Source: a virus. Taken from it: a stretch of 64,000 nt of DNA. The stretch covers positions 1-64,000 of IMG/VR virus record IMGVR_UViG_3300010373_001364; one strand, written 5' to 3'. Made by a program: the position numbers and the translations under genes. This document shows positions 47,455-48,381 of the stretch, in pieces (positions within the stretch are counted from its first letter, which is position 1; each line of letters begins with the position of its first letter). Under the pieces are notes generated by a model. The model worked only from the letters and a program-made list of their open reading frames with translations, made no database searches and had not been told where the DNA came from.

Positions 47455-47844
47455 ATGAAAGCAAAAGAATGGGTAGCAAAACTACAAAACGTACCTGAGC
47501 CTGAGTCAGAGCAACCCGTCGAGGAGCGATTTGCCAGTTTCATCGATGAATACGGTAAAGAGATTGTCGATTTGGTTGAATTCCGAACCAAGTTCTCTAA
47601 ACCGGAAAGCAGGTTCTCAGCTTCGGAAGGCGCGGTCAGAGAACAGCGTGAGAAGTTCCGAGTCATCTGTAACTCGTTCCCGGCTCTGACGGGATTATTC
47701 GATCCCATTCTGGAAAAGGTATTCCCAGAGTGGAAAAAGATGCTGGAATCCCACCAGAAGCAACAACAGAAAAAGAAGGAAGAAGACGACCGCCCCAGGA
47801 AAAACAACCGTGGGCGTCAGTTTGGCAACAACAAAAGAAGGTAG
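47455..47844 (+). CDS. Unknown early protein
   Basis: 129 residues: helical with a polar, Gln/Lys/Arg-rich C-terminus (QKQQQKKKEEDDRPRKNNRGR). AAAGG precedes the ATG. The stop is TAG (47842-47844), and the frame continues without interruption into the next gene, so UAG decoding would create a fusion of about 308 residues. No family is recognised. Confidence 0.6.
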   Translation: MKAKEWVAKLQNVPEPESEQPVEERFASFIDEYGKEIVDLVEFRTKFSKPESRFSASEGAVREQREKFRVICNSFPALTGLFDPILEKVFPEWKKMLESHQKQQQKKKEEDDRPRKNNRGRQFGNNKRR

Positions 47845-47848
47845 TTCC

Positions 47849-47876
47849 TTGATCGGGACTCGTTCGTTGCTATAAT
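47849..47876 (+). promoter_or_regulatory. sigma70-like promoter with extended -10
   Basis: TTGATC, 16-nt spacer, TGC-TATAAT, followed by GGAGGAAGG and ATG 47896. Confidence 0.75.
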
Positions 47877-47895
47877 GGGAGCAGGAGGAAGGAAC

Positions 47896-48381
47896 ATGGA
47901 GCCACCTGCTCCCCGGAAGTACGACATTCTGATCACCAACCACGCGCGAGAGCGGTGGGTGGAGAGAGTAGTTGACCCCAAGCGATATGAACACTTGCAC
48001 AAGTGCCGTGGCGAAGGATGCGAACAATGCGTTACTCTGCTACATGATCTTCGGAATGCTGTAAAGATTTGCGGACGTGGGATTGATGGAAAGATAGCTG
48101 CCGCCTATCGAATCGCTAAAGAAGAAGGGCGGCACGTCACCGACCTTTCCTTCATCGAGGCGGTGAAGAAACGCTACGGCATCAGAGGACGGGTAGACTT
48201 CTTACTCACACCCTCAAACAAGGTGCTGGTAGTGTGCTATAACGAGGAAGAGATTCCTGTCCTCAAAACCATCCTGACACAAGATATGGTAGACGGCTTT
48301 GTCATCATGACGAGTAACAACGATGACATGAAAACTGTCTTCAAAAGATGGCGTTTTGAGAACCGCCATATCAAAGATTGA
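47896..48381 (+). CDS. Unknown early protein
   Basis: 161 residues: RKYDILITNHARERWVERVVDP, LHKCRGEGCEQC (three Cys, possible metal site), then GRVDFLLTPSNKVLVVCYNEEEIPVLKTILTQD. GGAGGAAGGAAC sets the start at 47896. It is in the same frame as the gene before it. tRNA 1 begins 2 nt after its stop, so the tRNAs share this transcript. No family is recognised. Confidence 0.6.
   Translation: MEPPAPRKYDILITNHARERWVERVVDPKRYEHLHKCRGEGCEQCVTLLHDLRNAVKICGRGIDGKIAAAYRIAKEEGRHVTDLSFIEAVKKRYGIRGRVDFLLTPSNKVLVVCYNEEEIPVLKTILTQDMVDGFVIMTSNNDDMKTVFKRWRFENRHIKD

Follow-up and report, generated by a model that had tools for sequence, protein, structure and literature searches.

Suppressor tRNAs of a phage and their proposed target, a start-proximal amber codon in a predicted PTH2 peptidyl-tRNA hydrolase gene

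Introduction

Which amber codon is read by the suppressor tRNAs that a phage encodes? The question is raised by a locus at which two tRNA genes with a CUA anticodon directly follow two open reading frames, ORF A and ORF B, that share one frame and are divided by a TAG. The window, i.e. the whole stretch of 64,000 nucleotides analysed here, is part of a virus record of 176,115 bases, and its features at this locus are collected in Table 1. Both tRNA genes have a tRNA fold with a CUA anticodon and are amber suppressors by sequence; the first is well formed, and the second has a weaker tRNA score. UAG decoding by the phage's own tRNAs very probably occurs in this phage. Two further tRNA genes, one of them with the anticodon AAC, lie at 50095-50303 and have similar acceptor arms. 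The window also holds an amidoligase-like gene (45771-46826, minus strand) and a CTP synthase gene (59090-60799, minus strand).

Two candidate targets are considered below, the TAG between ORF A and ORF B and a TAG at codon 4 of a predicted PTH2 gene. It is very likely that the CUA tRNAs are dedicated suppressors and that the UAG in PTH2 is their conserved target, the stop serving as a gate and the tRNA as its key. This degree of confidence covers gate and key and does not extend to the purpose of the arrangement.

Table 1. Coordinates of the features discussed, numbered from the first base of the window.
Feature	Position	Strand	Details
Promoter-like TTGATC-16-TATAAT before ORF A	47397-47424	+	Consensus match only
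ORF A	47455-47844	+	129 aa; stop TAG (47842-47844), next base T
Promoter-like TTGATC-16-TATAAT filling the ORF A/ORF B gap	47849-47876	+	Consensus match only
ORF B	47896-48381	+	161 aa; ATG 47896, AGGAGGAAGG upstream; stop TGA ending 48381
tRNA, CUA anticodon (amber suppressor), well formed	48383-48455	+	Rfam tRNA 67.6 bits
Second tRNA, CUA anticodon, weaker tRNA score	48604-48676	+	Rfam tRNA 46 bits
Promoter-like TTGATT-16-TATCAT before the PTH2 leader	49126-49153	+	Pattern match
PTH2 leader, imperfect tandem repeat (CGCCTTAAAYGAYYGGTCRGC twice)	49155-49275	+	Long hairpin, z -2.66
Predicted PTH2 peptidyl-tRNA hydrolase gene	49281-49643	+	PF01981; AAGGAG ribosome site; ATG AGT CAC TAG GTT
In-frame UAG, PTH2 codon 4, proposed suppressor gate	49290-49292	+	Sequence

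The ORF A/ORF B pair

A preliminary description of this locus proposed that UAG decoding would join ORF A and ORF B into a fusion of about 308 residues. The layout from which it started is accurate: ORF A ends in TAG at the coordinates given there, the 17 codons after the TAG (47845-47895) run without a stop into ORF B, and the two CUA tRNA genes lie just downstream. For separate expression, its second suggestion, ORF B is well equipped, with a promoter and a ribosome site of its own. The promoter in the 51-bp gap agrees in design with the one that precedes ORF A, and no other place in the record of 176 kb fits the pattern TTGANN-(15 to 18)-TATAAT. An earlier in-frame ATG, at 47875, lies ahead of the ORF B start.

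That the pair is a programmed read-through unit, yielding the fusion when the suppressor tRNAs are active, is decidedly unlikely. It is true that only a TAG divides the in-phase frames and that the tRNAs lie immediately downstream. However, the phasing is not beyond chance, because, of 83 pairs of close neighbours on one strand of the record (counted in an automatic gene set that does not include the ORF A/ORF B pair itself), 20 are likewise in phase with no intervening stop, mostly after TAA or TGA and after TAG in one pair only. The gap holds a promoter, and its 17 codons, which score -3.1 bits, are not coding-like. The base after the ORF A TAG is T, a base found at none of 80 distinct PTH2 starts (see below), which speaks against this TAG as a programmed suppressor target. 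The arrangement in relatives points the same way, if in a thin sample: the only relative of ORF B found, a 29% identical protein of the uncultured phage LR756511 (595 kb), has its start at the same Met (the aligned 'MEP') with its own TAGGAG site before it, and no open in-frame ORF lies upstream. No relative of ORF A was found among phage records or by a close-relative scan of viral contigs, and the same kind of scan gave none for ORF B, whose structure predicted from the single sequence has a pLDDT of 42, too low to be of use. The most economical reading is that ORF A and ORF B are probably separate genes, each with its own promoter, that are in phase by chance. If the suppressors are strong, ORF A may now and then be read through by accident.

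A predicted PTH2 gene behind an in-frame amber codon

About 1 kb downstream of the ORF A/ORF B pair, a gene start reads AAGGAGAAAGAC ATG AGT CAC TAG GTT ACA. The frame after this TAG encodes a member of the PTH2 family (PF01981, 29.8 bits against a cut-off of 23), and the family profile matches Pth2 of M. jannaschii (2zv3, E 1e-7). The structure predicted by AlphaFold has a pLDDT of 89.8, and a Foldseek search with this model gave archaeal and human Pth2 among its matches; the 15 PDB matches with an E-value of at most 0.001 all belong to the Pth2 family or to uncharacterised proteins listed alongside it. By profile and fold, the product is a predicted PTH2 peptidyl-tRNA hydrolase.

No ATG, GTG, or TTG follows the TAG until deep inside the domain; full-length PTH2 therefore requires the UAG to be read. 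When the whole record was scanned for a ribosome site, an ATG, a stop, and an open frame in succession, PTH2 was the one clean case, besides two other matches. A match of the form ribosome site-ATG-TAG-open frame at L007 15347 (about 159347 of the record) has a low-complexity translation and is probably due to chance. The PTH2 leader has no Rfam match.

Conservation of the start-proximal TAG

The same arrangement is found in many other phages. The form ATG-(1 to about 11 codons)-TAG-PTH2 is present at 101 of 138 related phage PTH2 loci, the rest being 5 HD-PTH2 fusions with an early TAG, 3 loci with an internal TAG, 10 ambiguous ones, and 19 with none; this set contains duplicates, and clustering at 70% identity reduces it to 76 groups, of which 63 have the gate wholly or in part. 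For example, PTH2 starts ATG GCA CAA TAG in Cronobacter phage GAP32, ATG ACG CAC TAG in Serratia phage BF and an Erwinia phage, ATG CTG TAG in Salmonella phage Arash, ATG ACT TAG in Acinetobacter phage ME3, and ATG AAA TAG in Tenacibaculum phage pT24. Pectobacterium phage CBB and Xanthomonas phage XbC2 share the arrangement, as do the uncultured phages LR756500, LR756501, LR756511, and LR745206, and in XacN1 and RAS14 an HD-PTH2 fusion gene starts ATG AAG TAG. The gate would explain why PTH2 has been left unannotated in phage BF and Erwinia phages and annotated in shortened form in GAP32, CBB, Arash, and pT24.

The sequence around the stop is consistent with read-through. A purine after UAG favours suppression, and across the 80 distinct PTH2 starts the next base is A in 63, G in 16, C in 1, and T in 0 (purine in 79/80). 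Both strands of 1.79 Mb of PTH2 loci were scanned for a ribosome site, an ATG, up to 5 codons, a stop, and 80 open codons with no near start; the pattern was met with TAG 39 times, with TGA 5 times, and with TAA 4 times. Since the loci were chosen for PTH2, it is the contrast between the stop types that is informative. The 39 TAG matches include 34 PTH2 genes, 3 apparent PTH2 fragments, and 1 HD partner (locus L054). A PTH2 profile scan of GTDB genomes returned none.

Several loci depart from the common form. At L015 and L022, a TAG occupies the same internal PTH2 position (LVYL*V), and a CUA tRNA follows directly downstream. L189, L190, and L192 have extra partial PTH2 starts with an early TAG, broken off mid-domain, which are possibly copies split by an intron or insertion. 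Two mycobacteriophages, StephanieG and Phabba (L158 and L162), have RTG TAG GTG before PTH2 and a CUA tRNA close downstream; their gating is ambiguous, the spacing fitting a GTG after the TAG. The PTH2 matches of Atu_ph07, a phage with an opal suppressor (UCA tRNA; PMC6102473), have no internal stops, and the start regions gave no PTH2 frame, the loci lying probably on the other strand.

Linkage of the suppressor tRNA to the gated gene

A CUA tRNA lies within the fetched stretch at 88 of the 101 clearly gated loci. Among representatives at 70% identity, 50 of 62 gated loci have one, and the next anticodon reaches 18. All 101 nearest CUA tRNAs that were measured are on the PTH2 strand, at a median distance of 1.1 kb. 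The 13 clearly gated loci with no CUA tRNA in the fetched stretch include several contig ends and one detection miss (L048). Checks of whole records found one CUA tRNA in RAS14 and another in G001 that ARAGORN had missed.

The association also holds in the other direction: the whole records of RaK2, Hallingskeid, and G002 have no CUA tRNA, and their PTH2 lacks a usable TAG gate. At G002 (L053, about 5955-6004), the expected ATG is offset by one from the PTH2 frame (CAG TAG G), which may reflect a frameshift site or an assembly error. There are exceptions. In G004, PTH2 is ungated although a CUA tRNA is present, and L259 and L261-L263 have CUA tRNAs and no early TAG in PTH2. Phage Summit has an amber tRNA, yet a profile search found no PTH2 in it. 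A mini-ORF of Summit (L265, about 49442-49468; MZ326862), which follows a ribosome site and precedes the suppressor tRNA by about 430 bp, reads ATG AAG TAG GTC TAC AAG CCG CCG TAA.

Because the bodies of the CUA tRNAs are very diverse across loci, the suppressor tRNA has probably been replaced many times in evolution. Which residue is inserted seems to matter less than the read-through itself. A joint swap, seen in one case, is the strongest single indication that the stop codon and the tRNA act as a unit. At L253/L267, PTH2 starts ATG GCT TAA AAC, and the 15 kb stretch has a single tRNA, with a UUA anticodon, just downstream; the sister loci L244/L268 have ATG ACG TAG AAT and a CUA tRNA at the same place. 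The two pairs are 68% identical and are grouped with 100/95 support.

The HD-domain partner

PTH2 is often accompanied by an HD-domain family, which is homologous across phages; the Pfam HD match itself is weak. The family is fused N-terminally to PTH2 in XacN1, RAS14, L256, and L258, is fused C-terminally in pT24, and lies beside PTH2 elsewhere. The partner gene usually carries a TAG of its own or shares that of PTH2. Separate HD genes have a start-proximal TAG at L054 and at many of L198-L245, whereas those of GAP32, BF, CBB, XbC2, and their kin have an internal TAG at a fixed place and are annotated as short separate ORFs. The HD start overlaps the PTH2 end in ME3, Arash, and their kin, where HD may not need a gate of its own. 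G002, without a CUA tRNA, has an HD gene without TAG. No HD match was obtained in the 176 kb record studied here, which has the PTH2-only form, as does LR756511.

The proposed gate and alternative readings

The sequences display a blocked frame, a matching tRNA, linkage between the two, and their joint change, and the gate is well supported. What is proposed is a suppressor-gated HD/PTH2 module, represented in this phage by PTH2 only, for which the start-proximal TAG and the linked CUA tRNAs are both present. Without CUA tRNAs, translation of PTH2 would end after three codons. With charged CUA tRNAs, an amino acid would be inserted at the UAG of codon 4 and translation would run on to full-length PTH2, the dose of the enzyme being tied to suppressor activity, i.e. 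to the competition between tRNA-CUA and release factor 1. In many other phages the HD partner would be controlled with it, through an amber codon of its own, through a single amber codon for an HD/PTH2 fusion, or through overlap with PTH2. With a level that scales with suppression or with termination faults, PTH2 could act as a self-limiting sensor and could then clear the stalled or dropped-off peptidyl-tRNAs that result, including those from over-read ribosomes. Such a sensor or feedback purpose is much less certain than the gate itself. The broader proposal, for which the chances appear evenly balanced, is of a widespread phage device that locks an HD/PTH2 pair behind a start-proximal stop codon and has a dedicated suppressor tRNA as its key. 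Such a device would be a closed loop that monitors translation termination (or damage to tRNAs in the infected cell) and mends the faults it detects; the tRNA would have been replaced often, and stop and anticodon could change together.

The early stop might instead form a minigene (AUG-NNN-UAG) that drops short peptidyl-tRNAs, the substrate of PTH2, so that the 5' end would sense peptidyl-tRNA hydrolase activity directly and the tRNA would be secondary. Two- and three-codon minigenes are tied to peptidyl-tRNA hydrolase in phage lambda, according to papers cited in PMC10192219. The minigene reading leaves unexplained, however, the TAGs internal to HD and PTH2 domains and the swap of stop and anticodon. 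As the whole explanation it is quite unlikely; a minigene effect may be an added layer.

It is very unlikely that PTH2 is translated without suppression, by ribosomes that restart behind the UAG at an adjacent non-AUG codon. In E. coli, AUU can serve as an initiation codon, ATT or GTT often stands directly after the TAG, and the spacing of the mycobacteriophage versions fits a GTG start. Other lineages, however, have AAT, AAC, ACC, or GGC at that place, and neither the linked CUA tRNAs, nor the TAA/UUA swap, nor the TAGs far inside HD and PTH2 domains would be accounted for by a restart.

Use of genetic code 15 (TAG as glutamine) throughout the phage, with PTH2 merely one recoded gene, is extremely improbable: CUA tRNAs are present, code-15 phages are known (PMC9523058), and this code may be used by some metagenomic relatives in which TAG occurs internally, LR756501 for example, but TAG still terminates 16 of the 104 ORFs of at least 200 aa in the record, read-through-like TAG is no commoner than TGA or TAA (3, 4, and 5), and neither widespread in-frame TAG in genes nor conserved in-frame TAG in other large genes was seen in this record. 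The reading preferred here is the suppressor gate on PTH2.

Comparison with known systems

Suppressor tRNAs of standard-code phages have repeatedly been reported without a target, and PTH2 offers a concrete candidate, conserved in gated form in phages of about 160 to 735 kb. XacN1 (PMC5852040), RsoM2USA (PMC8504454), and Summit (PMC9022506) resemble the present phage in having CUA/amber suppressor tRNAs, whereas the targets in these three were reported as unidentified or only guessed; for the two CUA tRNAs of XacN1 and for the suppressor tRNA of Summit, the target is stated to be unknown. We propose, from the sequence of its start, that the HD-PTH2 gene is the target in XacN1. The enzyme itself has been noted before: a comparative survey of jumbo phages from 2021 lists PTH2, with a possible role in ribosome rescue, and the part of that survey available makes no mention of a start-proximal amber codon or of a link to a suppressor tRNA (PMC7824862). 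No paper connecting an amber gate on PTH2 with a suppressor tRNA was found in a search of a collection of open-access papers, and the arrangement, seen in scores of diverse large phages, is apparently unreported so far.

Three known systems come close. The bar minigenes of phage lambda are likewise very short AUG-NNN-stop frames tied to peptidyl-tRNA hydrolase; there, in contrast, the minigene is a separate element and the hydrolase comes from the host. Release factor 2 (prfB) is autoregulated by an early in-frame UGA and a frameshift. In prfB, as proposed here, the efficiency of termination is reported by a stop codon placed early in the gene for a translation factor; the present case differs in its use of UAG and a dedicated tRNA with no frameshift, and in its product, a predicted peptidyl-tRNA hydrolase. 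Code-15 phages (crAss-like, Lak, and others) also have a phage CUA tRNA that decodes in-frame UAG and may thereby help with timing. Many genes are recoded in those phages, whereas here TAG still terminates genes and a single enzyme module is the conserved target, which suggests that stop-codon suppression may serve phages as a switch for a single module, besides genome-wide change of the code.
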